Shown here: in pieces, positions 1,849 to 21,731 of the stretch | How positions within the stretch are numbered: position 1 is the first letter of the stretch | Layout of the letters: every line of letters starts with the position of its first letter | DNA from: a virus | Virus record (IMG/VR): IMGVR_UViG_3300046816_000335 | Span: 1 to 30,209 of that record | Length of the DNA: 30,209 bases | Reading direction: 5' to 3' (one strand) | Notes under the pieces: generated by a model | The model's input: only the letters and a program-made list of their open reading frames with translations | Database searches by the model: none | What the model was told of the DNA's origin: nothing | Made by a program: the position numbers and the translations under genes

Positions 1849-2154
1849 ATGTCAGTCAACACGGAGTTAACGGTCGCCGCTTGGCGATGCCCCTGTCACC
1901 CCGGGGCGCGGTGGAGTTTCTTTGCACCCTACGAAGGTTGCCCGATCAGCGATATGAACATCGCGTCGCAGACCTTCGGCCACAGATACGCCACTGTGGC
2001 CGAGCTACAGGCCGCACACCCGGGCGTGCGGCCCTCCGCGCTTGCCGACGACGCTGACTGGTTGACCCTGCTAGAAACGTTGATTGGCGGCCGTTCGTAT
2101 CTGACGGTCGCGGGCGAGCGGGTCCTGCCGGCGGTGGCCGATGACGCAGCCTGA
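1849..2154 (+). CDS. Hypothetical protein
   Basis: A 101-aa protein (MSVNTELTVAAWRCPCHPGA...). ATG 1849 has AAGGG seven bases upstream; an earlier in-frame ATG at 1798 lies within an inverted repeat and lacks an SD. A CPCH motif near residue 14-17 and a later Cys suggest possible metal binding. The C-terminal part is mixed helix/strand (DWLTLLETLIGG, SYLTVAGERVLPAV). The end overlaps the first glycosyltransferase by 14 bases (ATG...TGA), so it probably belongs to the same transcript. No family recognised. Confidence 0.7.
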   Translation: MSVNTELTVAAWRCPCHPGARWSFFAPYEGCPISDMNIASQTFGHRYATVAELQAAHPGVRPSALADDADWLTLLETLIGGRSYLTVAGERVLPAVADDAA

Positions 2155-3658
2155 GCCGATCGAGGTGGACGACCCGTCCACCGCTGTGGCCGTCGCCTTC
2201 GTCCACAACGGCGACGAGGTCGACTACAGCTTCTTCCACTCCTACGTGCAGCTGATCCACTTCGACGCCGCGAATGAAGGCCGGACGTGGCGCGGTGGGG
2301 AGTTCAGCATCCGCGCCGGCACCGACGGTCTGGCCGCGGCGCGGAACACGGCGGTGCAGGGCTTCCTGTCCGAGTCGAAGGCGGACTGGTTCTGCTGGTT
2401 CGACACGGACATGGGCTTCGCGCCGGAGACGGTGGACCTGCTGCTGCAGGCCGCCGACCCGGCTGAGCGTCCGGTCATGGGCGGGTTGTGCTTCGCGAAC
2501 CGCGAGGTCGAGAACGACGGCATGGGTGGTCGGATCGCCCTGGCGGCGCCGGTCATCATGGACTGGAAGACGGTCGACGGGGAGCAGGGTTTCGATACCC
2601 GCTGGAATTACGCCCAGAACGCGATCGTGCGCTGCGACGGCGTGGGTTCGGCGTGTGTGCTGATCCACCGGAGCGTGTTCGAGCGGGTCCTGGCCGAGTT
2701 CGGCCCGAACTGGTACTCCCGGGCGCGTAACCCGAGCACCAACCAGTTGATCTCCGAGGACCTGTCGTTCTGCGTGCGGGCCAACGCGCTGGACATTCCG
2801 ATCCACGTGCACACCGGCGTGAAGACGACCCACGCGAAGCGCGTGTGGCTGTCGGAGACGCACTACTGGCAGCAGCGGTTGCTGAACTCCGCTCCGTCGA
2901 CGGCGGAGGGTGCGCCGATCCCGGTGGCGGCTCCTACGTGGACGGTGCCGCGGTATGCGGTGATCCCGACCCACAACCGGCCGGCCCGGCTGCTGGCGCT
3001 GGTGGTGTCGCTGGGCGCCCAGTGCGACCACATCGTGATCGTGGACAATGCCTCGACGCCGCCGGTGGACCAGGCGCACCTGCAGGCCTCGGTGCCGGAG
3101 CACTGCAGGGTTGAAGTGATCCGCGACGAGGAGCAGCCGCCGAACCTCAGCCGCATCTGGAACGTCATGTTCGACCACTGCGCTGAGGCCGAGTTGGTCG
3201 AGGATGAGACCGCCTGCGGCGACGAGGACCACTGCGCCCAATTCAAGCCGGGCCCGGCGTGGGACGTTGCCGTCTTCAACGACGACAGCGTGGTCCCGGC
3301 CGGCTGGTACAACACCGTGGCGACGGCGCTGCGCGAGCACGACTCGGCAGTGGTGGCGCACACGGCTCCGACCTCGCCTTTGCTGCTGACCGAACTCCAC
3401 AACGACCATCGCAACCGGATGGCCCCCCATGCCTTCATCATGCGGGGCGAAGTCGATCTGCGCTCCGACGAGTCGATGCAGTGGTGGTACTTCGATACAG
3501 ATCTGGACCTTCGCGCCCGCAAGGTGGGCGGTGTGCTCTCCGTCCCGGGGCCGCAGGTGATCAACGCTCAGGCCAACTCCACGACACGGGGAGCGCTTGC
3601 GGTGCAGGCCGAGAAGGATCGCATCGCTTTCGAGGCGAAGTGGGCGGGTCAGCTATGA
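2141..3658 (+). CDS. Two-domain GT-A-type glycosyltransferase
   Basis: A 505-aa protein with two GT-A-like halves. Half 1 (about 15-255) has WFDTDMGF with the DxD at 88-90 and ISEDLSFCVRA near 204-214, the acidic motif expected for the acceptor base. Half 2 (about 271-500) opens YAVIPTHNRPARL, continues IVIVDNAST and has FNDDSVVPAGW (DD at 381-382), then WWYFDTDLDLRARK. These are family 2 glycosyltransferase signatures: transfer of a sugar from a nucleotide-sugar to an acceptor, here unknown. No signal peptide or membrane segment, so it acts in the cytosol. It overlaps both neighbours and opens the sugar cassette. Bifunctional transfer (two linkages) is an inference from the two DxD sites. 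Confidence 0.85.
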   Translation: MTQPEPIEVDDPSTAVAVAFVHNGDEVDYSFFHSYVQLIHFDAANEGRTWRGGEFSIRAGTDGLAAARNTAVQGFLSESKADWFCWFDTDMGFAPETVDLLLQAADPAERPVMGGLCFANREVENDGMGGRIALAAPVIMDWKTVDGEQGFDTRWNYAQNAIVRCDGVGSACVLIHRSVFERVLAEFGPNWYSRARNPSTNQLISEDLSFCVRANALDIPIHVHTGVKTTHAKRVWLSETHYWQQRLLNSAPSTAEGAPIPVAAPTWTVPRYAVIPTHNRPARLLALVVSLGAQCDHIVIVDNASTPPVDQAHLQASVPEHCRVEVIRDEEQPPNLSRIWNVMFDHCAEAELVEDETACGDEDHCAQFKPGPAWDVAVFNDDSVVPAGWYNTVATALREHDSAVVAHTAPTSPLLLTELHNDHRNRMAPHAFIMRGEVDLRSDESMQWWYFDTDLDLRARKVGGVLSVPGPQVINAQANSTTRGALAVQAEKDRIAFEAKWAGQL

Positions 3659-4125
3659 GCGGCCGCCCGACTGACCCCGTGGCCCGGTTCTGGCGCAAGG
3701 TCAACCAAGCCGGTCCCGCTGTGGACCCAGACCTCGGCCCATGCTGGCAGTGGCTGGGCAAGCCGCATCGAGGTGGCTATGGTCGACACTCGCCGACCCC
3801 AGGCGCGATCGTCTACGCCCATCGGTACTCGTATGTCCTGCTTATTGGTGAAGTCCCCGAGGGACTCCAGCTCGACCATCTTTGCCGCAATCGGATGTGC
3901 GTTCGCCCGGAACACCTCGAGCCCGTAACCGGGAAAGAGAACATCGCCCGAGGCGAGGCGCCTACTGCAATCCACGGGCGCAAGACGCATTGCGACGCTG
4001 GGCACCGGTTGGCCGACGACAACCTTCACGTCTACACGATCCGCTCGACAGGCACTATGGGTCGTCGTTGTCGAGCGTGCGGCGCTGCGAGGGCGCGCGA
4101 ATACAGGGCGCGGGTGGCCGCATGA
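3655..4125 (+). CDS. HNH endonuclease (HNH_3 type), free-standing
   Basis: A 156-aa HNH nuclease. The N-terminus (RFWRKVNQAG...CWQWLGKPHRGGYG) and HRYSYVLLIGEVPEG lead into LDHLCRNRMCVRPEHLE (73-89), which carries the metal-binding His, Asn and His. A C-terminal zinc knuckle follows: CDAGH (113-117) and CRAC (139-142). Such nucleases in phages are usually homing-type elements that cut a cognate allele and are copied in. It overlaps the upstream gene by ATGA and the downstream glycosyltransferase by ATGA, an unusually neat fit for an invader. It is paralogous to the HNH gene at 11112-11585, which also precedes a glycosyltransferase. Confidence 0.9.
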   Translation: MSGRPTDPVARFWRKVNQAGPAVDPDLGPCWQWLGKPHRGGYGRHSPTPGAIVYAHRYSYVLLIGEVPEGLQLDHLCRNRMCVRPEHLEPVTGKENIARGEAPTAIHGRKTHCDAGHRLADDNLHVYTIRSTGTMGRRCRACGAARAREYRARVAA

Positions 4126-4730
4126 TCGGCTACGGCGCCTGCATCGGTTCGTGGGAGAAGCTGCCCTGCAACATCCTGCCGCGGGTCAAGGACCGGCCGT
4201 TGGTCGTTCTGTCCGGTCAGTCGTCGATCGCCGCGGCCTACAACGCCATCCTCGACGCCTACAAGGGTCGGGGAATGGACGCGGTGATCCTGCTCCACGA
4301 CGACCTGGAGATCACCGACCCGGCCGCGGAGTTCAAGTTCCTCGCCGCCCTCGACGAGGACGTGGCGCTGGTCGGCGTCGCCGGCGGCGGCCCGTCACTG
4401 CGGTGGTGGGACCACAACCCGATCGGCCACCAGATGACCGACTCCGGCCCGCTCGACTTCGGTCGGCGCAGCGGTGACGTGGACATGGTCGAGGGCTCGA
4501 TCGTGGCGTTCTCGCCGTGGGCGGTGGAGAACCTGCGCATCGACGAGCGCTACACCGACTTCCGGTCCGGGTGGGATGACGTCTGCCTGCATGCCCGGGC
4601 GGCCGGCAAGCGGGTCGTGGTGGCCGATGTGGACACACACCACCACACGACGGTCGGGTGGAAGTCGCCAGAGATCGAGGCGAAGTTCGTCGAGTCGGAG
4701 CGGATGTTCCGAGAGAAGTGGGCGGCATGA
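4122..4730 (+). CDS. GT2-like glycosyltransferase
   Basis: A 202-aa protein resembling the short glycosyltransferase-like family that starts GSWEKL and has SGQSSIAAAYNAILDA (31-46). LLHDDLEI (57-64) is the metal/nucleotide-binding acidic site; GWDDVCLHARA (150-160) supplies the second acidic motif; HHHTTVGW (173-180) is the conserved C-terminal His cluster. Predicted to transfer a sugar from a nucleotide donor in the cytosol; donor and acceptor unknown. The start ATG overlaps the HNH stop and its own stop overlaps the C-methyltransferase start (ATGA in both cases), so translation is probably coupled along the cassette. Confidence 0.8.
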   Translation: MIGYGACIGSWEKLPCNILPRVKDRPLVVLSGQSSIAAAYNAILDAYKGRGMDAVILLHDDLEITDPAAEFKFLAALDEDVALVGVAGGGPSLRWWDHNPIGHQMTDSGPLDFGRRSGDVDMVEGSIVAFSPWAVENLRIDERYTDFRSGWDDVCLHARAAGKRVVVADVDTHHHTTVGWKSPEIEAKFVESERMFREKWAA

Positions 4731-5926
4731 GGCGCCTGACCTGCGGCGCCTGCGCCGGCACGAAGCTGACTGTCTTCCTCGACCTCGGCCGGACGCCGTT
4801 GGCCAACCGGTACCCGGCCACCGTCGACGAGAAGGAAGCCTGGTACCCGCTGCAACTCGGCGTGTGCGGTAACTGCGGGCTGGTCCAGCTCATGGAGATC
4901 GTGGATGACCACGAGCTCTACGGCATCGACTACGGCTTCTACTCCGGCGGCTCGATGGCCCAGCTCGAGTACCACCGCCGCGGCGCGCAGCTGCTTCTGG
5001 ACCGGTTCCCGGAGCAGGCGAAGCAGCTGACCATCGAGGTGGCCTGCAACGACGGCAGCCTGCTGCAGCACTTCGAGGCCGCCGGCTGTCGCAGTCTCGG
5101 CATCGACCCAGCGGTGGGCCCGGTCGAGCAGGCGCGCGACCGGGGGCTGGATGTTATCCAGCAGGCGCTGTCGACCGAGCTCGCCCAGAAGGTTCGCGAC
5201 GAGTACGGGCCGGCCGGGTTGGTCATCGCCTACAACTCGATGGCCCACGTCCAGGACCTCAGCGACGTGCTCGCCGGCGTGCGGGCCCTGATGGACACCG
5301 ACAGCGTGGCTGTGTTCGAGGTCCAGTACCTGCCGGATCTGTTGGCCGGCAACATGTACGACCAGGTGTATCACGAGCACCGGTTCTTCTACTCGCTGCG
5401 CAGTCTGCGTCACGCCACCGGCCTGCACGGGCTGTACGTGGTCGACGCGGAGCTGATCGAGCTGCAGGGCGGCGGCATCCGCGTCACCCTGTCCGCCGAC
5501 CCGGAGGCCATCCCTTCGCCGGCGGTGGAGCGGATCGCCGACTCGGAGTGGTGGCTGGAGCACGCCTACGCCGGCTTCCAGGGCAAGGTGGACCGCACCC
5601 GCGATCACCTGCGCAGCCTGATCCTGGCCGAGGTGGCCAGCGGCGCCAGGATCGCCGGCTACGGCGCCGCGGCGAAGGCGACGACGATCCTGAACTTCTG
5701 CGGGATCGGGCCGGAGGCGCTGCAGTACGTGGTCGACACGACGCCCTACAAGCAGGGCCGGTTCGTACCCGGTACCGGCCTGCGGATCCTGTCGCCGGAG
5801 GCGGCTGCCGAGGAGCCGGTGGACACGCTGCTTCTGCTCGCGGCGAACTACCTCGGCACGGTACTGCGACACAACCCGCACAAGGGCCGCTGGATCACGC
5901 CTCAGCCGCTGCCGGCGGTGATCTGA
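4727..5926 (+). CDS. Sugar C-methyltransferase (TylC3/NovU/TcaB9-like)
   Basis: A 399-aa, full-length SAM-dependent C-methyltransferase of the family that methylates C3 or C5 of NDP-4-keto-6-deoxysugars in antibiotic pathways. Visible hallmarks, in order: an N-terminal zinc site CxxC...CxxC (C6, C9, C47, C50); SAM motif IEVACNDGSLL (103-113), an EVACNDG variant of the usual E(I/V)GSNDG; YHEHRFFYS (215-223), the active-site His/Tyr region; GYGAAAKATTILNFCGI (311-327); and DTTPYKQGRFVPGT (337-350). ATG 4727 is chosen for the ATGA overlap. It is followed at once by an RmlB-like dehydratase, which could make its 4-keto substrate. Substrate and methylated carbon are not determined by the sequence. 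Confidence 0.9.
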   Translation: MRRLTCGACAGTKLTVFLDLGRTPLANRYPATVDEKEAWYPLQLGVCGNCGLVQLMEIVDDHELYGIDYGFYSGGSMAQLEYHRRGAQLLLDRFPEQAKQLTIEVACNDGSLLQHFEAAGCRSLGIDPAVGPVEQARDRGLDVIQQALSTELAQKVRDEYGPAGLVIAYNSMAHVQDLSDVLAGVRALMDTDSVAVFEVQYLPDLLAGNMYDQVYHEHRFFYSLRSLRHATGLHGLYVVDAELIELQGGGIRVTLSADPEAIPSPAVERIADSEWWLEHAYAGFQGKVDRTRDHLRSLILAEVASGARIAGYGAAAKATTILNFCGIGPEALQYVVDTTPYKQGRFVPGTGLRILSPEAAAEEPVDTLLLLAANYLGTVLRHNPHKGRWITPQPLPAVI

Positions 5927-6945
5927 TGCGGGTACTCCTGACCGGGGCATCAGGCTTCCTGGGCGCGAACTGCCTGCGGTACCTGCTGGACGAGACGGAC
6001 TGGGACATCGTGTGCCCGGCCAGCTTCAGCCATCGCGGCGTACCGGAGCGCATCACGCAGACCGTGCGGACGAACTGCCCGGTCGATGAGTGGCAGCGGG
6101 TCACCGTTGTGACTTGCGACCTGGCGACTCCGATCGCCGACACCACCGAGGCGCTGTTTGGCGACATCGAAGCAATCATCAACTTCGCGTCGGAGTCGCA
6201 CATCCCGCGCTCGATCGCCGACCCGGTGCCGTTCGTGCAGAACAACGTCAACTCGATGCTGCACCTGCTGGAGTATGCGTGGTGCCTGCCGCACCTGAAG
6301 GCTTTCGTGCAGATCTCCACCGACGAGGTCTACGGTCCCGCCTCCGACGGCGCGCATGCGGAGTGGTCGCCGATCCTGCCGTCCACGCCGTACAGCGCGA
6401 GCAAGGCGGCGCAGGAGGCTCTGGCGATCTCGTACTGGCGGTCCTTTGGGCTGCCGCTGGTGCTGGTGAACACGATGAACCCGGTCGGGCCGATGCAGGA
6501 CCCGGAGAAGTTCGTCCCCATGGTCATCGGCCGGGTGCTGCGCGGCGAGGTCGTGAACATCCACGCCGGCCCCGACGGGGAGATCGGGTCGCGGGTCTAC
6601 GTCAACGCCCGCGACCTGGCCGCGGCGATCCTGCACCTGCTCGGCGGTGACGTCTCGCTCTACGGCCAGCCTTATGTGGACCGGCCGGACCGGTGGAACG
6701 TGGTCGGCGAGCGTGATGTCAGCAACCTGGAGTTGGCGCAGCTGATCGCCGACGAACTCGACCTTCCGCTGCGCTATGACGTGCTCCTGTCCGACCGGCC
6801 CGGACACGGCCTGCGGTACGCCCTCGACGGCACGAAGCTGGCCGACGCCGGGTGGAAACCGACGCGGCGGATCGAGGACTCAGTCGCCGAACTGGTCGCA
6901 TGGTCCAGGGCGAACCCGCTGTGGGCGAATCGGGTGCCGCGGTGA
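5926..6945 (+). CDS. NDP-sugar 4,6-dehydratase (RmlB-like extended SDR)
   Basis: A 339-aa NAD-dependent extended short-chain dehydrogenase. The Rossmann motif is TGASGFLGAN (6-15); FASESHIPRSIADP (87-100) corresponds to the AAESHVDRS segment of dTDP-glucose 4,6-dehydratases; STDEVYG (131-137) holds the Thr-Asp-Glu dehydration site; YSASK (156-160) is the YxxxK catalytic pair; DRPGHGLRYALD and a later GWKP match the C-terminal family signatures. It would convert an NDP-hexose to the 4-keto-6-deoxy form. The usual NNYGPYQFPEKLIP segment is NPVGPMQDPEKFVP here, so the nucleotide or sugar may differ from dTDP-glucose. Starts in a TGATG overlap with the C-methyltransferase stop. Confidence 0.88.
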   Translation: MRVLLTGASGFLGANCLRYLLDETDWDIVCPASFSHRGVPERITQTVRTNCPVDEWQRVTVVTCDLATPIADTTEALFGDIEAIINFASESHIPRSIADPVPFVQNNVNSMLHLLEYAWCLPHLKAFVQISTDEVYGPASDGAHAEWSPILPSTPYSASKAAQEALAISYWRSFGLPLVLVNTMNPVGPMQDPEKFVPMVIGRVLRGEVVNIHAGPDGEIGSRVYVNARDLAAAILHLLGGDVSLYGQPYVDRPDRWNVVGERDVSNLELAQLIADELDLPLRYDVLLSDRPGHGLRYALDGTKLADAGWKPTRRIEDSVAELVAWSRANPLWANRVPR

Positions 6946-7439
6946 AACTCAACCTGGGTTGCGCCGACCGGTATGTCGAAGGCTGGCACAACGTCGACCA
7001 CGAGCCGTGCCCGCATCCCCGCGACGAGACGGTCGACCTGACCGGCCCACTGCCATGGCCCGACGGCAGCATCGAACTCGTCTACGCCGGGCATCTGCTC
7101 GAGCATCTGACCTACGAGCAATGTCGGACGCTGCTGGTCGGGTTGCGAGACCTTATGGTTCCCGGCGGCCAGTTGATGGCTATCGGTCCGGACATGGCGC
7201 TGGTGGAGTCGCTGGGTACCGGCGACAGGCATGAGGTCGACGAGTTACGCCACGGCGGCCACCGGTGGCAGGGTGACGAGCACCGGTGGGAATGCACAAC
7301 CGCCCTGATTGAGGGCCTGTTGCGCGATGCGGATTGGCTTGAGGTCACCGACGTGGGTATCGCCAACGTGGCTCTCTCGTGGCCGGTCATCGACCGGGTG
7401 CCGCAGTGGCAGTTTGCGGTGAGCGCCGTAGCGCCATGA
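6942..7439 (+). CDS. Class I SAM-dependent methyltransferase
   Basis: A 165-aa methyltransferase starting at GTG 6942, overlapping the dehydratase stop (GTGA). LNLGCADRYVEGWHNVD (3-19) is the SAM-binding motif I plus the acidic end of strand 2; PWPDGSIELVYAGHLLEHL is motif II/post-motif, typical of small methyltransferases that sit beside glycosyltransferases. It is short for the fold but all core strands seem present. Substrate unknown; a sugar O-methyltransferase is a reasonable guess from the cassette. Its stop overlaps the next glycosyltransferase start (ATGA). Confidence 0.82.
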   Translation: MKLNLGCADRYVEGWHNVDHEPCPHPRDETVDLTGPLPWPDGSIELVYAGHLLEHLTYEQCRTLLVGLRDLMVPGGQLMAIGPDMALVESLGTGDRHEVDELRHGGHRWQGDEHRWECTTALIEGLLRDADWLEVTDVGIANVALSWPVIDRVPQWQFAVSAVAP

Positions 7440-8005
7440 GCATCACGGTTGTCATCCCCACGATCGACGGACGGTACGACCAGCTGCACCGGGCCATTGC
7501 CTCGGTGCACGCGCAGACGCTGCGGGCCACCGAGATCCAGGTTGAGTTCGACCGGCTCCGCACCGGCGCCGCCGCGACCCGGAACCGGGCGCTGGAGCAC
7601 GTCGAGACCGAGTACGTCGCCTTCCTCGACGACGACGACGAGCTGAAGCCGAACCATCTGCGGGTCTGTGCCCGGTACGCGGCACTGACCGGGGCGGACG
7701 TCGTCTACCCGTGGTTCGACTGTGACGGCGAGGACCCGATCGGCATGTTCGGGGTGCCGTTCTCGGCGCGGCTCCTGCGCCAGCGCAACTACATCCCGGT
7801 CACGGTGCTGGCCCGCACCGAGCTGGTCCGGGCGGCCGGCGGGTTCCAGGAACACCCGGATGAGAACGGCGACCCGTGCGAGGACTGGGGCCTGTGGCTG
7901 GCGCTGCTCGACGCTGGCGCGAAGTTCGGCCACGTACCGCAACGGACGTGGATCTGGCACATGGGCGGCGGGACGAGAGGCAAGGGCACGACATGGCCGA
8001 AGTAG
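7436..8005 (+). CDS. Family 2 glycosyltransferase
   Basis: A 189-aa GT-A glycosyltransferase. MSITVVIPTIDGRYDQLHRA opens the fold; ATRNRALE (47-54) and FLDDDDEL (63-70) form the donor/metal site; CEDWGLWLALL (148-158) is the ED catalytic-base motif near the C-terminus. The protein is short (catalytic core only) with no membrane anchor. It closes the contiguous sugar cassette, and its end overlaps the next small gene by 13 bases. Acceptor and donor unknown. Confidence 0.85.
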   Translation: MSITVVIPTIDGRYDQLHRAIASVHAQTLRATEIQVEFDRLRTGAAATRNRALEHVETEYVAFLDDDDELKPNHLRVCARYAALTGADVVYPWFDCDGEDPIGMFGVPFSARLLRQRNYIPVTVLARTELVRAAGGFQEHPDENGDPCEDWGLWLALLDAGAKFGHVPQRTWIWHMGGGTRGKGTTWPK

Positions 8006-8181
8006 ACAGCGTCCTGACCGTCACCGCTGAGGCCGAGGTGGTGACCGCGCTGGACACCCTGCTCGCGATCCGCGCGTTGGCCGAGTCGCGTCAGATGCCG
8101 GCGACCGATGGCGGACTGGCGGATCTTGCTGCGGTCTGGCCGAGAGAGATCCTTCGAATCCTCAATGGAGACCTGACGTGA
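7993..8181 (+). CDS. Small hypothetical protein
   Basis: A 62-aa, mainly helical acidic protein (MAEVDSVLTVTAEAEVV...) overlapping the end of the glycosyltransferase by 13 bases and the next start by GTGA. No motif or family recognised. The overlap on both sides and good codon use support coding. It links the sugar cassette to the virion surface genes that follow. Confidence 0.65.
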   Translation: MAEVDSVLTVTAEAEVVTALDTLLAIRALAESRQMPATDGGLADLAAVWPREILRILNGDLT

Positions 8182-8570
8182 CGACTGGACTGAGTGCGGC
8201 CAACCTCGCCAACAAGTGGCTGGACATGCTGGGCGCCACCGCCTTCAGCGCGCCAACCAACACCTACGTCAAACTCCACACCGGCGATCCCGGTAGCGCC
8301 GGTACGTCCAACGCGTCGGCCAACACCACCCGCGTCGTACTCGCCTGGTCTGCCGCGTCGGCCGGCAGCAAAGCCATTACGGCCACCCTGCCGTCCTGGG
8401 CAGCCTGGGCATCCGGCTCGGAGACGATCAGCCACATCTCGGTCTGGGACAACCTGACCGTAGGCAACTTTCTCTTCTCCGGCGCGCTGACCGCATCGAA
8501 GCCGATGACCAACGGGGACACGCTCAACCTGACATCCATGAGCATCGCCCACACCCCGATCGCAGCGTGA
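8178..8570 (+). CDS. Putative tail-fibre/decoration-like virion protein
   Basis: A 130-aa protein with the segment YVKLHTGDPGSAGTSN followed by beta-strands and SVWD. This LHTGDPG pattern is, to my knowledge, common in small actinophage virion proteins often labelled minor tail or fibre proteins. It has no transmembrane segment and is rich in Thr, Ser and Ala, a plausible acceptor for O-glycosylation. Start GTG 8178 overlaps the upstream stop. Assignment to tail rather than head is uncertain because it precedes the connector genes. Confidence 0.6.
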   Translation: MTTGLSAANLANKWLDMLGATAFSAPTNTYVKLHTGDPGSAGTSNASANTTRVVLAWSAASAGSKAITATLPSWAAWASGSETISHISVWDNLTVGNFLFSGALTASKPMTNGDTLNLTSMSIAHTPIAA

Positions 8571-8592: not shown

Positions 8593-9774
8593 ATGGCCGC
8601 CCCCACGTTCCATTCGATCGGCACCCAGCTACAGGGCACCGTTTCCACCGCCAGCCTCGCCAAACCCGGCACCATGTCCGACGGCGATGTGGTCCTGGCC
8701 CTGGTGTTCATCAATTCCACTACCACCGTGTCGTCGGCGCCGTCGGGCTTCACGCAGGCCAGCGGTTCGCCTATCGCGGTGGCATCCGGCGGCGGCGCAC
8801 ACTCGATGGTCGCCTACTGGAAACGCGTCACCACCGCATCCGGCGAGCCGTCCACCTACGACTTCGTGCTCAGCGGCAGTCAGTACGTCAACGGCTGCGC
8901 GGCTGCCTACTCCGGCTGCGTCGCGTCGGGCACGCCGCTGGACGTGACGAACTCGGCGCACTTCGACACCAACGCCACCGCCACGCCGAACGTGGCGGTC
9001 ACCACCTCGACGGCGAACACGCTGCTCGTCTTCCAGGGCGGTAACTGGTCCGGCGGTGCATGGACGCCGCCCACCAGCTTCACCGAGCGAGTCGACACCG
9101 GCGACCGCGTCCACACCATCGACGACCTCGCCCAGGCCGCGGCTGGCTCCTCGGGCAACGTCAGCGCCACAAACGCATCTTCCGCGCCGTGCACGGCATG
9201 GCTCGGCGCGCTGCTACCAGTGGCCAGCGGTACGACGCAGAACGCCGCAGCCACGATCTCGATCACCGACACGGTCACGTCCGCCGCGACGATGACAAAA
9301 CCAGCCGATACGGCGGTCACCGTCACCGACACGGTGGCCTCTGCGGCGGCGGTCACCCGGCCAGCCGACGCCGCGGTAGCCATCACCAACACGGTTGCCT
9401 CGGCTGGTGCAGCGACCCGGCCGGCGGACGCAGTCCTGCTCACAACGGACGTCATCACCACCGCCAGCACCGTCACTCGGCCAGCAGATGCGACAAGCCT
9501 TGCCGTCACCAGCACGGTGGCCACTGCAGCCGCTGTTGCGCTCGGTGGCGCCACCTCGGTTTCAGTAACCACCGCCATCGCCAGCGCGGCCACCGTGACG
9601 CGGGCAGCCATCGCGGCCGTCTCGGTAGCGAACGTCATTACGACCGCAGCTTCCGGCGGGACGACAGCGCGCGGCACTGATGCTCGGGTCTTCGCCTCAA
9701 CCCCGCCCGGCCGGGCCACGTCTTCGTCGGGTTCCGGTCGCATCACCGCATCCAATGAGGGGAGGCGCATGTGA
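8593..9774 (+). CDS. Virion surface protein with beta-sandwich head and 20-residue repeats
   Basis: A 393-aa, Thr/Ala/Ser/Val-rich protein. Residues 1-210 look like a beta-sandwich: SDGDVVLALVFI, SAPSGFTQ, VAYWKRVTTASGEPSTYDF, AAAYSGC, TANTLLVFQGG. A similar layout forms the N-terminus of the large minor tail protein at 15944. Residues about 225-354 are six to seven imperfect 20-residue repeats (TDTVASAAAVTRPADAAVAI type), likely an elongated beta or fibrous stalk. Clear SD GGAGGT at 8582-8587. The GTG start of the connector overlaps its stop. Function as a head or tail surface spike is inference; the Thr/Ser-rich repeats are candidates for sugar attachment. Confidence 0.65.
   Translation: MAAPTFHSIGTQLQGTVSTASLAKPGTMSDGDVVLALVFINSTTTVSSAPSGFTQASGSPIAVASGGGAHSMVAYWKRVTTASGEPSTYDFVLSGSQYVNGCAAAYSGCVASGTPLDVTNSAHFDTNATATPNVAVTTSTANTLLVFQGGNWSGGAWTPPTSFTERVDTGDRVHTIDDLAQAAAGSSGNVSATNASSAPCTAWLGALLPVASGTTQNAAATISITDTVTSAATMTKPADTAVTVTDTVASAAAVTRPADAAVAITNTVASAGAATRPADAVLLTTDVITTASTVTRPADATSLAVTSTVATAAAVALGGATSVSVTTAIASAATVTRAAIAAVSVANVITTAASGGTTARGTDARVFASTPPGRATSSSGSGRITASNEGRRM
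9265..9654 (+). repeat. Tandem 60-bp coding repeats
   Basis: Six to seven degenerate units of about 60 bp encode T(D/N)TVxSAxxVTRPADAxxxx repeats. Early units keep TRPADA; later units lose it. The divergence suggests an old expansion under protein-level constraint. Confidence 0.75.
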
Positions 9775-10631
9775 CCACCCGCAGCGTCGGCGACCAGGTC
9801 GACGTCGGCTACCTCGCCACCGTCGACGGCGTCCTGACCGACGCAACGCTCACCCTCACGGTCACCGACCCGACCGGTACGCCGACCACACCATCGGTGA
9901 CACACGCCTCGACCGGTAACTATCAGTCCTCGTTCACCGTCAGTGCGGCCGGGGTGTGGTTCTGGTACTGGACCGCCTCCGGCGCGGTGGTGGACGTGAC
10001 GCCGCCGGAGTCGGTACTGGCCGCAAACCCTGGCCCGCCGACGTATGCCAGCCTCGTGGAGCTGAAGGCGTACCTCGGGATCACCGACACCACCGAGGAC
10101 CCGCAGCTGCTGGACTCGCTCATCACCGCGTCGCGCGGCATCGAGCACATCTGCGGCCGCCGGTTCTACCCGGACCTTGCCGCCACCGCCCGCCTGTTCC
10201 GCCCCCGCGACGGCTTCGCGGTCCCCGTGGACGACTTCTGGACCACGACAGACCTTGTCGTCGCGGTCGACAACGCCGACAACGGCACGTTCACCACGGT
10301 CGACGCCTCCACGTACTTCCTGGAGCCGTTCAACGGTGTCAGCGACGGTGAGGCCGGCTGGCCGTACTACCGGATCAACGCTGCCACCGGGTCATGGCCG
10401 TGCAACAACCGCCGCCCCGCGGTGCAGATCACAGCGCGCTGGGGTTGGGCCACCACGCCAGGACCGGTACATCAGGCCTGCGTCTACCTGGCCGAGGAGA
10501 CGTTCAAGATGAAGGGCTCCCCGTTCGGTGTTGCCGCGAGCGACATCCACGGCCCGATCCGGATGCGGGACAACCCGAAGGTCATGCAGATGCTGGCCCC
10601 GTACCGGGACAACGCGGTGATGATGGCATGA
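9771..10631 (+). CDS. Head-tail connector with N-terminal Ig-like domain
   Basis: A 286-aa protein. Residues about 92-260 resemble phage head-tail connector proteins of the gp6/gp15 type: YASLVELKAYLGITD, then EDPQLLDSLITASRGIEHICGRRFYP, a helical pair, and AVQITARWGWATTPGPVHQACVYLAEETF near the end. This is a ring protein that docks below the portal. Residues 1-80 form an extra beta domain (DATLTLTVTDPTGTP, STGNYQSSFTVSAAGVWFWYWTASG), like the Ig-like or carbohydrate-binding-type folds that decorate virions. GTG 9771 overlaps the upstream stop and follows AGGGGAGG. The fusion is unusual for a connector and may expose a domain at the neck. Confidence 0.78.
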   Translation: MTTRSVGDQVDVGYLATVDGVLTDATLTLTVTDPTGTPTTPSVTHASTGNYQSSFTVSAAGVWFWYWTASGAVVDVTPPESVLAANPGPPTYASLVELKAYLGITDTTEDPQLLDSLITASRGIEHICGRRFYPDLAATARLFRPRDGFAVPVDDFWTTTDLVVAVDNADNGTFTTVDASTYFLEPFNGVSDGEAGWPYYRINAATGSWPCNNRRPAVQITARWGWATTPGPVHQACVYLAEETFKMKGSPFGVAASDIHGPIRMRDNPKVMQMLAPYRDNAVMMA

Positions 10632-11053
10632 CCGACATCGAGGCTGTGTGCGACGCGATCGCGGCCAACATCATCGCCGGGATGGCCGGCGACGCGATCG
10701 CCGGCCGGACGTTCTCCATCGCCACGGACTCGATCAACCCGCCGACCGCGATCGTGGTACCGGCCCCGGGCGAGTTCCTGATGTACGACGACACGTTCGG
10801 CGGGACCAGCAACTACGACATTGTCGTGAAGATCCTCAACGGGACCCAGGACGCACCAGCGTCGCAGACCAAGCTCATGGGCTACATGAAGAAGTCCGGG
10901 GCGACCTCCATCCGGGCCGCCATCCTGTCCGACGTCAAACTCGGCGGGATCGTCTCCTACATCGAGGTTCCGGCCGCGTTGAGCTACCACAACGTCGAGT
11001 GGTCGGCGCAGCTGTTCCTCGGCTTCGAGCTGTCGGTGAAGGTGTTCGAGTAA
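10628..11053 (+). CDS. Tail terminator / neck protein candidate
   Basis: A 141-aa protein starting ATG 10628 (ATGA overlap with the connector). It begins with a helix (MTDIEAVCDAIAANIIAGMA), then strands with PPTAIVVPAP, YDIVVKIL and a late VEWSAQLFLGFELSVKVFE. Length, fold outline and position between connector and tail tube fit the tail terminator or completion proteins of siphophages, which cap the tube and join it to the head. Family membership is by pattern and context, not by a diagnostic motif. Confidence 0.6.
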   Translation: MTDIEAVCDAIAANIIAGMAGDAIAGRTFSIATDSINPPTAIVVPAPGEFLMYDDTFGGTSNYDIVVKILNGTQDAPASQTKLMGYMKKSGATSIRAAILSDVKLGGIVSYIEVPAALSYHNVEWSAQLFLGFELSVKVFE

Positions 11054-11057
11054 TAGG

Positions 11058-11085
11058 CCCGGCGGGCGCGTGCGGCGCCCCCGGG
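11058..11085 (+). terminator. Strong stem-loop after tail terminator gene
   Basis: CCCGG-c-GGGCGC pairs with GCGCCC-CCGGG around the loop GTGCG, 11 bp with one bulged base. It starts five bases after the stop at 11053 and precedes the HNH gene. There is no T-run, so it may be an attenuator or an mRNA-stabilising element. Confidence 0.55.
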
Positions 11086-11111
11086 GTTGGCCGACCGATC
11101 AGGGAGTCGAC

Positions 11112-11585
11112 ATGGGTAATCGTAAGGTCGGACAGGACTATGCCGTTGACGCCAGGCTCACGGAACGTTGGCGAGCCAAGGTAGACATGTCCGATCACCG
11201 CGGATGCTGGCTATGGCAGGGGTCCGTCATGCATAACAGTCGTTACGGGCAGATCCACGTCAAGCTAAGGAACGGCAGTTGGTCTGCGACGGTGGCCCAC
11301 CGGGTCGCCTATGAGATTTACCGCGGGCCGATACCTGAGGGGCTGGTCCTCGACCACCTGTGCCGCAACCGACAGTGCGTAAACCCAAGCCATCTCGAAG
11401 CGGTTGAGAACCGGACCAACATCCTGCGTGGCACCGGCTTCGCCGCACACCATGCCCGCAAGTCGCATTGTCCGCAAGGTCACGAGTACGGCACGGAGAA
11501 CACGTACCTCGACAAGGGCGGCATGCGTCACTGCCGCGCGTGCGGCCACGATCGATATCTGGCCAGGAAGGAGGCGAGAACTTGA
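11112..11585 (+). CDS. HNH endonuclease (HNH_3 type), second copy
   Basis: A 157-aa HNH nuclease related to the 3655-4125 protein: GCWLWQG, VAHRVAYEIYRGPIPEGL, then LDHLCRNRQCVNPSHLE (80-96) with the catalytic/metal residues, and a C-terminal knuckle SHCPQGHEY ... HCRACGHDRY. ATG 11112 has AGGGAG five bases upstream. Codon use here is less GC-rich at third positions than in flanking tail genes, suggesting a newer arrival. Its end overlaps the glycosyltransferase start (TTGA). Probably a homing-type element that separates neck genes from the tail tube gene. Confidence 0.9.
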   Translation: MGNRKVGQDYAVDARLTERWRAKVDMSDHRGCWLWQGSVMHNSRYGQIHVKLRNGSWSATVAHRVAYEIYRGPIPEGLVLDHLCRNRQCVNPSHLEAVENRTNILRGTGFAAHHARKSHCPQGHEYGTENTYLDKGGMRHCRACGHDRYLARKEART

Positions 11586-12604
11586 GGTTCCTCGTCGCGA
11601 TGCCCGCCCCGGCCTTCTCGGTCGCCGATGTGGCGGCCGGCTGGGTCGAAGCCCTCCGGGCAGGCGGCCAGCACGTCATCGAGTTCAACCATGGCGATCG
11701 ACTTTCCTTCTACGCATCCGCACTTCGCCAAGTATCAGAGAACGAATTTGTCCGTTTCCTTACGGCGGAGCAGGCCCACGAACTTGCCGTGAACGGGCTG
11801 TATGCGGCGCTTTATAAGTCGAGACCAGATGTGCTGCTCGTTGTTTCCGGGTTCTTTATCCCGCCAGAGCTTCTTGATCGTGTCCGCCGAACGGGGACCC
11901 GGGTTGTCCTGATCCACACCGAACAGCCCTACGAGCAAGACCGCCAGCTCGCGCTCGCTCCGTTTGCTGACCTGAATCTCGTTGATGACATGGTTGGCAT
12001 CGAGAATTTCCAGGCGATCGGGCCGACGGCCTATCTGCCGAAGGCCTACCGGCCCTCGATCCACAAGCCCGGCCCCGCCGTCGAGGCGCTGCGGTCAGAC
12101 CTGGCGTTCGTCGGCACCGGCTACCAGTCGCGGATCGACTTCTTCGAGGCGATGGACCTCGACGGCCTGGATGTCCTCCTGGCCGGCAACTGGCAGCAAC
12201 TGGCCGAGGATTCGCCGCTGGCGCCGTTCGTGGCGCACGACCCGGAAGAGTGCCTCGACAACGAGAAGACCGCGGACGTGTACCGGTCGGCGAAGGTCGG
12301 GCTGAACCTGTACCGGCGTGAGTCGCAGCGACCGGAACTGTCGCAGGGCTGGTCGATGGGGCCGCGCGAACTGGAGATGGCCGCGATCGGCCTCCCGTTC
12401 GCCCGTGACCCCCGCGGCGAGGGCGACGAGCTCCTGCCGATGCTGCCGACGTTCACCTCGCCGGCCGAGGCGGGCGACATCGTGCGCTGGTTCCTGGCCC
12501 ACGACGACGAGCGCGAGAAGGCCGGGGCCCTGGCCCGGGAAGCGATCGCGCACAGAACCTTCGATTCGCACGCAGCGGTCCTGCTGCGCCTGCTCAACGG
12601 ATAG
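11582..12604 (+). CDS. GT-B glycosyltransferase (group 1 / CgeB-like)
   Basis: A 340-aa GT-B-type protein. The N-terminal lobe (MRFLVAMPAPAFSVADVAAG ... RPDVLLVVSGFFIPP ... IHTEQPYEQD) is the acceptor domain; the C-terminal lobe has DLAFVGTGYQSR (173-184), VLLAGNWQ, VYRSAKVGLNLYRRE (233-247) and GPRELEMAAIGLPF (260-273), where the Glu-containing loop binds the nucleotide-sugar in this group. TTG 11582 is the start: AAGGAGG (11568-11574) lies seven bases upstream and TTGA overlaps the HNH stop. The first half (about 11690-12000) uses noticeably more A/T third positions than the second half, hinting at a mosaic join. It sits just before the tail tube gene; target unknown. Confidence 0.83.
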   Translation: MRFLVAMPAPAFSVADVAAGWVEALRAGGQHVIEFNHGDRLSFYASALRQVSENEFVRFLTAEQAHELAVNGLYAALYKSRPDVLLVVSGFFIPPELLDRVRRTGTRVVLIHTEQPYEQDRQLALAPFADLNLVDDMVGIENFQAIGPTAYLPKAYRPSIHKPGPAVEALRSDLAFVGTGYQSRIDFFEAMDLDGLDVLLAGNWQQLAEDSPLAPFVAHDPEECLDNEKTADVYRSAKVGLNLYRRESQRPELSQGWSMGPRELEMAAIGLPFARDPRGEGDELLPMLPTFTSPAEAGDIVRWFLAHDDEREKAGALAREAIAHRTFDSHAAVLLRLLNG

Positions 12605-12616
12605 GGAGTAAAAGCA

Positions 12617-13021
12617 ATGGGCCGCATCGCGGGCAGAAACGCCATCATCTACTTCGGGGCGACGAACGGCGCACAGGCGTCGCCGTTGGCGTTCGCCGCG
12701 CAGTACGCCCTGAACTTCGCCACCACCAAGATCGACGTCACGGCGTTCGGGGACCGGGGCAAGGTCTCGCTCTCTGGCCTGCCCGCGCAGTCAGGATCCA
12801 TGAACGGGTTCTACGACGACGCCACCGCCCAGACCTACACCGCCGCGGCGGACGGCCTGGCTCGCAAGCTCTACATCTACCCAAGCACCTTGACCGCCAG
12901 CCAGTACTTCTTCGGCACTGTGGTCGCCGACTTCAACAGCGACGCCACGGTGGACGGCGCGGCGACGTTCGTGTCGTCGTTCGAGGCTGCATCGGCGGAC
13001 GGCATCCAGAAGGTCGGCTGA
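12617..13021 (+). CDS. Major tail tube protein
   Basis: A 134-aa protein (MGRIAGRNAIIYFGATNG...) with the features of short siphophage tube proteins: an N-terminal strand with AQYALNFATTKIDVTAFGD, a Gly-rich loop, FYDDATAQTYTAAADGLARKLYIYPS, and a C-terminal strand-rich VASFEAASADG-like end (here VSSFEAASADGIQKVG). It follows GGGAG eight bases upstream. Location before the chaperone and tape measure genes strongly supports it. It would polymerise as hexamer rings around the tape measure. Confidence 0.85.
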   Translation: MGRIAGRNAIIYFGATNGAQASPLAFAAQYALNFATTKIDVTAFGDRGKVSLSGLPAQSGSMNGFYDDATAQTYTAAADGLARKLYIYPSTLTASQYFFGTVVADFNSDATVDGAATFVSSFEAASADGIQKVG

Positions 13022-20907: not shown

Positions 20908-21093
20908 ATGACCAGACTCGCCGAGTGCGCCAAGGCCTGCGTGGCCGTCGGCACAGCCGCCCTCGTGGCCGTCCAGGCGCTCATCCCGATGTCGCCCACC
21001 GAGCACGGCTGGGTGGCGGTCGCGCTGGCCGGCCTCGGCGCGGCCGCCGTGTACCGGGTTCCGAACGCGCCGGCCGAGCCGGCGCCGAAGTGA
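20908..21093 (+). CDS. Probable holin (two-helix, actinophage type)
   Basis: A 61-aa protein with two membrane segments: about 5-27 (AECAKACVAVGTAALVAVQA) and 34-52 (HGWVAVALAGLGAAAVYRVP), with a Pro-rich C-terminus. The pattern AKACVA...EHGWVAVALAGLGAAAVY..PN is common to small phage holin-like proteins next to actinophage endolysins. It would form the membrane lesion that releases the GH25 lysin. GGAGG lies upstream of ATG 20908. It overlaps the next gene by GTGA. Confidence 0.72.
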   Translation: MTRLAECAKACVAVGTAALVAVQALIPMSPTEHGWVAVALAGLGAAAVYRVPNAPAEPAPK

Positions 21094-21731
21094 CCTACGA
21101 CAGCCGCCCGGAGACGCTGCTGCACAGCCAGCGCGTCGGCGAACTCATGGTGCAGGTGGCCAAAGAGGTGCTCGACCGGTCAACCTGCCATGACCGCAGC
21201 AAGACGCTGCCACCCGAGGTCGAGACCTTCGACGAGTTCACGCCGAAGCTCAAGGGCTCCACCTACGGCACTGACGAGTACAAGAGCTTCCTCGTCGCGA
21301 TGGGCGAAGGCCTCGCCCATCACTACGCCCACAACCGGCACCACCCGGAGCACTTCCGCAACGGCGTGGACGATATGACTCTCGCCGACCTCGTCGAGAT
21401 GCTCGCCGACTGGAAGGCCGCCACCGAACGGCACGATACTGGCGACCTGGCCAAGAGTCTGCTGATCCAGCAGGAGCGCTTCGGCCTGTCCGACCAGTTG
21501 GTGCGGATCCTGCGGAATACCGCCCTGCGCTACCGCTGGCTGACGGGCCAGCCCTGCGGCGCTGAGACCAGCCACTATCGCGGCGAGCACTGGGTCTGCA
21601 ACGTGACCGTTGACTCGCTCGGCAAGCACGAAGGCACCCATGAAGACGGCTCCTGGGGTCCCGGTGCCGAATGGCCGCAGAACTCCACCGATGCTCCGAC
21701 CGCACCCGCGGCCGGTCCCAATAAGGAGTGA
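21090..21731 (+). CDS. DUF5662-like protein, HD-type residue pattern
   Basis: A 213-aa protein matching, by memory of its conserved blocks, the DUF5662 phage family. Residues include H12, CHDRSK (33-38), LAHHYAHNRHHPEH (75-88) and DLVEMLADWKAAT (100-112). This His, His-Asp, His, Asp spacing resembles HD-superfamily metal phosphohydrolases, but function is unproven. The C-terminal part (155-185) adds CGAETSHYRGEHWVC ... HEGTHEDGS, a likely metal knuckle. GTG 21090 overlaps the holin stop. Its place just after lysis genes and before a secreted protein suggests an accessory (moron-like) role. Confidence 0.7.
   Translation: MTYDSRPETLLHSQRVGELMVQVAKEVLDRSTCHDRSKTLPPEVETFDEFTPKLKGSTYGTDEYKSFLVAMGEGLAHHYAHNRHHPEHFRNGVDDMTLADLVEMLADWKAATERHDTGDLAKSLLIQQERFGLSDQLVRILRNTALRYRWLTGQPCGAETSHYRGEHWVCNVTVDSLGKHEGTHEDGSWGPGAEWPQNSTDAPTAPAAGPNKE

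Follow-up and report, generated by a model that had tools for sequence, protein, structure and literature searches.

The virus record IMGVR_UViG_3300046816_000335, analysed here over its complete length of 30,209 bases (the window), carries a sugar cassette inside a phage virion operon. The cassette (positions 2141-8005) consists of seven genes, A to G, in one overlapping run on the + strand, and combines a sugar C-methyltransferase (D) with an RmlB-like nucleoside diphosphate (NDP)-hexose 4,6-dehydratase (E) and several glycosyltransferases (GTs). On balance, we favour reading it as a phage module for tailoring and transfer of nucleotide sugars, which would place a C-methyl-6-deoxyhexose on virion proteins by means of the phage's own GTs. 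The core formed by C, D and a nucleotide-sugar short-chain dehydrogenase/reductase (SDR; E in the window) has passed as a block from one phage backbone to another. More tentatively, and with less than even confidence, we propose that phages switch the sugar of their particles through this core, of which there are at least three chemical kinds, much as bacteria switch serotype, and that the cassette stands under an undescribed pseudoknotted leader RNA. The genes of the cassette are:

2141-3658, + strand: A, two-domain GT, 505 amino acids (aa); N-terminal half, PHROG glycosyltransferase (6.3e-24); C-terminal half, PF00535 (1.6e-11)
3655-4125, + strand: B, HNH endonuclease between A and C; PF13392 (2.2e-11)
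4122-4730, + strand: C, GT-A-fold GT, 202 aa; assigned by structure model and fold match (Pfam match weak, 0.0016)
4727-5926, + strand: D, TylC3/TcaB9/KijD1-type sugar C-methyltransferase, 399 aa; PF08421, PF13489 and PF08484
5926-6945, + strand: E, RmlB-like NDP-hexose 4,6-dehydratase, 339 aa; motifs STDEVYG and YSASK; best NCBIfam and PDB matches are dTDP-glucose 4,6-dehydratases
6942-7439, + strand: F, class I methyltransferase, 165 aa; PHROG 6636 (2.8e-8) and class I methyltransferase fold (model pLDDT 94)
7436-8005, + strand: G, GT2 glycosyltransferase, 189 aa; PF00535 (2e-13) and PHROG 14775 (2.6e-32)

All genes that an earlier note, made from the sequence alone, had listed for the cassette are found where it placed them and belong to real families, according to profile matches and, for C and F, structure models. 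The list lacked B, and a further GT gene, N (11582-12604), lies outside the run that the note had delimited.

The domain order of D (Methyltransf_13, S-adenosylmethionine (SAM)-binding core, Methyltransf_14) is that of the TylC3/TcaB9 type, and the protein aligns over its full length with solved sugar 3-C-methyltransferases, namely KijD1 (PDB 5t64; E-value 1.8e-73, 38% identity), and also TcaB9 and the mycarose 3-C-methyltransferase. When mapped onto KijD1, Tyr69, Tyr215, Glu217 and His218 of D fall on the Tyr and Tyr-x-Glu-His site, the residues of which we take to be catalytic in TcaB9. All four residues are identical in 61/61 phage homologues readable there, and the four zinc cysteines (CxxC...CxxC) are present in D and kept in nearly all of these homologues. 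D thus shares the whole domain order, the zinc cysteines and the active-site residues with TylC3, TcaB9, KijD1 and NovU, but differs from them in being encoded by phages within virion operons, in forming a clade of its own, and in reading YHEH where the known enzymes have YDEH (the YHEH variant is shared by actinobacterial relatives). The ratio of nonsynonymous to synonymous substitution rates (dN/dS; rough Nei-Gojobori estimates) is ~0.23-0.32 against three related contigs (L002-L004), which corresponds to purifying selection. The predicted chemistry of D is well supported by homology.

In E the catalytic motifs Thr-Asp-Glu and Tyr-x-x-x-Lys are intact, and dN/dS against the same three contigs is 0.26-0.29, again purifying selection. 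The fold family and both motifs are shared with RmlB and with the phage 'nucleotide-sugar epimerases' of PHROG 540; unlike RmlB, E is paired with a C-methyltransferase. Its relatives include proteins of the Streptomyces phages Zuko and KimJongPhill and the Arthrobacter phages Atuin and Mimi (42-48%). The proteins of Zuko (NC_070829 / MN204493 gene 4) and Atuin (OK040794 gene 153), annotated as 'UDP-glucose dehydrogenase', match E over its full length; in Zuko a GT gene adjoins the E-like gene, and GT-methyltransferase-GT genes near 76-78 kb resemble G and the C-terminal half of A. As a separate observation, the RmlB-like dehydratase gene of a 95 kb viral contig (L009, 8450-10555) contains an in-frame LAGLIDADG intein, inserted immediately behind the YxxxK catalytic Tyr.

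A nucleotide-sugar SDR adjoins D in 36/54 contigs that have DNA beyond D (the contigs compared are metagenomic fragments, and E-values of loci are relative to their own search), and three kinds can be distinguished. The RmlB-like kind is found in the window and L002-L006, and more distantly in L014 and L032; Thr-Asp-Glu and Tyr-x-x-x-Lys are kept in the SDRs of the window, L002, L003, L006 and L008, and L014 and L032 have TNE. The second kind resembles true GDP-mannose 4,6-dehydratase (GMD) and has the catalytic Glu (L019, L021, L024, L038, L040, L042 and L046). The third, found at 25 loci (e.g., L010 13492-14319 and L026 11179-12060), is derived from GMD, has Ala in place of the Glu and a shorter loop, and for these reasons is more likely to act as a 4-ketoreductase or epimerase than as a dehydratase (GMD catalytic residues after PMC3539893). 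On the D tree the SDR kind changes only 2 times, the minimum possible, compared with 13.7 in shuffles; shared descent contributes to this agreement. The dehydratase and the C-methyltransferase had been proposed as a coherent pair, and the kept active sites, the purifying selection, the exchange as a block and the agreement of SDR kind with D phylogeny all bear this out.

The exchange is visible in the nucleotide identities. Between the window and L010 they are 83% for A and 81% for G, and drop to 68% for C-D, with E swapped for a GMD-derived SDR. Compared with L002 the pattern is reversed, with 80.5% for C-D-E and 72% and 74% for A and G, respectively. Since C, D and the SDR move as a unit, we argue that the three have a joint function and that what the exchange alters is the type of sugar; related phages would therefore carry different sugars on similar particles. 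By swapping sugar-building enzymes as a unit, phages could vary the chemistry of their surface without depending on the host.

D relatives were found in 63 uncultured viral contigs. A phage-made branched deoxysugar had been called unusual, which holds among sequenced isolates, where D has matches in 7/50,697 phage records (all remote, 25-37% identity), but not among uncultured viruses, where the gene is recurrent. In the D tree, 59/60 analysed phage proteins form one clade (SH-aLRT branch support 98), apart from 30 actinobacterial homologues; the cellular homologues were drawn from 397 genomes of one phylum. A scan of 84,980 species genomes by two short peptide patterns, which can miss relatives, gave no prophage copy of D and a single, remote cellular relative (a Nocardioides gene at 34%). 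Prophage-like regions of Actinomycetota with related capsids (34-38%) have no cassette in the stretches read. The literature on phage C-methyltransferases, in a coverage with few subscription papers, yielded nothing on point.

Each of A, C, G and N matches a GT family profile or has a GT fold. The two halves of A also occur in relatives as separate genes, each alone. The AlphaFold model of C (pLDDT 92, from a 37-sequence alignment in which HxD and HH motifs are invariant) has Majastridin/UDP as its best PDB match (2qgi; E-value 4.1e-11, TMq 0.75), which indicates a GT-A fold. N has no match among isolated phages and is kept in relatives, where it adjoins the tail tube gene. B is probably an inserted selfish gene, given that the L002 and L003 cassettes lack it.

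In the proposed scheme, E would convert host dTDP-glucose (dTDP being the presumed nucleotide) to an NDP-4-keto-6-deoxyhexose, and D, using SAM and His218, Glu217 and Tyr69, would add a methyl group to the carbon beside the ketone, either C-3 (as TylC3 and TcaB9) or C-5 (as NovU). The C-4 ketone would be reduced by a host ketoreductase, or the step skipped. F, a possible sugar O-methyltransferase, may methylate the sugar further, and A, C, G (and N) would move it from nucleotide donors in the cytosol straight to phage structural proteins. The virion is the likeliest acceptor because of the site of the cassette among head and tail genes, the position of N beside the tail tube gene, the lack of a clear membrane segment in the cassette proteins and the precedent of mycobacteriophages, in which the virions of Che8, Corndog and Myrna are glycosylated (PMC12363180, PMC11256854). 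The earlier note had stated that the window encodes no 3,5-epimerase, and indeed the window contains neither this enzyme nor a sugar nucleotidyltransferase; genes of the RmlA type (NTP_transferase) are also absent from 27/30 related records. One relative (L026, with its near copy L029) does have an RmlC-like 3,5-epimerase (2.6e-42) in the cassette, between A and a GT4 gene.

Pathways with similar steps are known. The noviose pathway comprises NovT, NovU, NovW and NovS. A dehydratase and a C-methyltransferase are likewise combined in the virenose route proposed for Coxiella, in which a TylCIII-type step follows an NDP-4-keto-6-deoxyhexose made from GDP-mannose or TDP-glucose (PMC3539893), and this choice of precursors fits phage modules with either SDR type. 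The likeness to both pathways extends further in L026, where the RmlC-like epimerase stands beside the C-methyltransferase and SDR. In contrast to these pathways, the phage steps are divided among variants, no reductase has been identified, and there is no dedicated antibiotic or lipopolysaccharide context. The mycobacteriophages mentioned above have in common with the window phage GTs, actinobacteriophage-type capsid relatives and the proposed virion target (PMC12363180), but those reports concern mainly transferases using host sugars, whereas here the putative builders of a rare, carbon-branched donor sugar accompany the GTs in a structural operon. Giant viruses also encode synthesis of rare deoxysugars for particle glycans; they infect eukaryotes, and a C-methyl sugar is not mentioned there (PMC10117803). 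The favoured reading predicts specific glycan masses for specific phages, and glycochemistry could draw on the cassettes for new sugar C-methyltransferases and 4,6-dehydratases.

Several observations weigh against attachment of a C-methyl sugar to the virion. TylC3, TcaB9 and KijD1, as studied experimentally, act on 2-deoxy or 3-amino sugars, and the enzymes for such sugars are not seen in the cassette. E scores 196.4 bits on TIGR01181, below the 365.1-bit equivalog cut-off for RmlB (it is therefore named RmlB-like, not RmlB), and the L005 version lacks the catalytic Glu (STDSVYG). Hosts often make dTDP-4-keto-6-deoxyglucose already, without help from a phage E. No SDR is recognised beside D in 18/54 contigs, mostly of larger phages with the order A-C-D-F-G-G and usually with no Epimerase-family gene in the record, so D need not always have a phage-made ketosugar. 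Finally, position in a virion operon points to late expression rather than to a given acceptor.

The many contigs that have D but no SDR leave room for a plain or otherwise modified 6-deoxyhexose, with D acting on another substrate and E only raising the host supply of 4-keto-6-deoxyglucose. Among isolated phages it is common to find RmlB-like genes where D is absent (238 records), and the sampled actinobacterial relatives of D have no assigned function in these data. We consider this explanation improbable, given that D matches sugar C-methyltransferases over its full length with a conserved active site, and that D and the SDR are adjacent, swapped together and congruent in phylogeny. Slightly better odds, though still low, are given to a C-methyl sugar that is made as proposed and put on a host surface glycan, for receptor masking or superinfection exclusion. 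Phages are known to seroconvert their hosts by Gtr-type systems, GT2 enzymes can act on lipid-linked or surface glycans, and G weakly matches the GtrB-like PHROG 22739. The cassette has no recognised lipid-carrier or flippase gene (GtrA-like included) and no clear membrane-spanning segment as judged by hydropathy only, which sets it apart from the Gtr type; late expression, as implied by the head and tail genes around it, and the lack of a recognised integrase in the fragment also speak against a host glycan. Glycosylation of phage DNA at hypermodified bases is well known for phage GTs (T4), but is very unlikely here, as no hydroxymethylase or base-hypermodification gene is recognised in the 30 kb window, the cassette adjoins the capsid gene, and no DNA glucosyltransferase is among the best fold matches of C in the PDB. 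The contig being metagenomic, a functionless passing pick-up of host polysaccharide genes, as cargo or assembly artefact, was also considered; it is contradicted by the phage-only D clade, the purifying selection and a gene order and site shared by dozens of contigs that stem from different samples, and we give it next to no credence.

The cassette is preceded by a conserved leader and a small open reading frame (ORF):

1769-1852, + strand: conserved leader, H-type pseudoknot-like RNA; stem 1 CCTGCGGCCGG/CCGGCCGCAGG, stem 2 GGATGGTT/AACCATCC
1849-2154, + strand: small ORF, 101 aa, between the leader and A (L010 has one too)

Bases 1769-1852 are much more conserved than the flanking sequence. 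The two stems interleave, and an extra copy of AACCATCC adjoins the ribosome-binding site. The leader occurs once per contig in 21 contigs (the window, L002, L003, L004, L006, L010, L011, L015, L018, L023, L026, L028, L030, L031, L033, L036, L039, L045, L050, L053 and L066), usually 55-107 bases 5' of the start of A or of a small ORF ahead of A. Stem 1 is paired in 100% of cells and includes three double-changed pairs; the evidence for stem 2 (one compensatory pair) is thinner. Overall, 15 double-change cells are observed, compared with 4.5 in shuffles (0/500 reaching the observed value) and 0-2 in slid controls. Scans of the window and of the leader against Rfam gave nothing above chance. The leader, a testable candidate, probably has a role in translational control of the first gene in the cassette. 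With a wider pattern it is found in 8 more contigs, in some of them ahead of other genes. An exclusive tie of the leader to gene A was considered and rejected, as A is not directly 3' of it in four further contigs.

The genes of the window lie on the + strand with short overlaps, and in the cassette the genes probably begin a few bases before the stop of the preceding gene. The gene order is endonuclease VII, small ORFs, sugar cassette, gp80-type protein, Ser/Thr-rich repeat protein, head-tail adaptor, tail terminator, HNH endonuclease, N, tail tube, tape measure candidate, a large uncharacterised protein and endolysin. Downstream of the cassette are:

8178-8570, + strand: I, gp80-type virion protein; PF23140 (1.4e-27), PHROG 240 head protein
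8593-9774, + strand: J, Ser/Thr/Ala/Val-rich repeat protein, 29% Ser+Thr; PHROG 6813
9771-10631, + strand: K, head-tail adaptor; PHROG 442 (3.5e-23)
10628-11053, + strand: L, tail terminator; PHROG 17840 (2.8e-14)
11070-11585, + strand: second HNH endonuclease, among virion genes
11582-12604, + strand: N, further GT between tail terminator and tail tube; PF13524 (1.7e-12)
12617-13021, + strand: O, tail tube protein; PF06199 (6.4e-5), PHROG 10528

Together with the HK97-type capsid and prohead protease genes found just upstream of the cassette in relatives, these genes confirm the earlier placement of the cassette inside a virion operon. Many contigs have the order prohead protease, capsid, small ORFs, A, C (or GT4), D, SDR, G, head-tail adaptor, tail terminator, N and tail tube; the A-C-D-F-G-G order of the larger contigs is a second architecture. 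J, directly 3' of the cassette, is, speculatively, a candidate O-glycan acceptor.

The window has no nucleotide match over bases 1-25000 among the 50,697 isolated phage records. The phage looks to be an uncultured, soil-type one, and its host is loosely assigned to Actinomycetota from the 67% G+C content and from phages of Gordonia, Mycobacterium and Rhodococcus that have related capsids (40%). The HNH genes at 3655-4125 and 11070-11585 are both wedged between overlapping or abutting genes of the virion and sugar operon and are likely mobile insertions. Past the endolysin region, the window encodes a DUF5662 protein (20925-21731; 1.8e-33).

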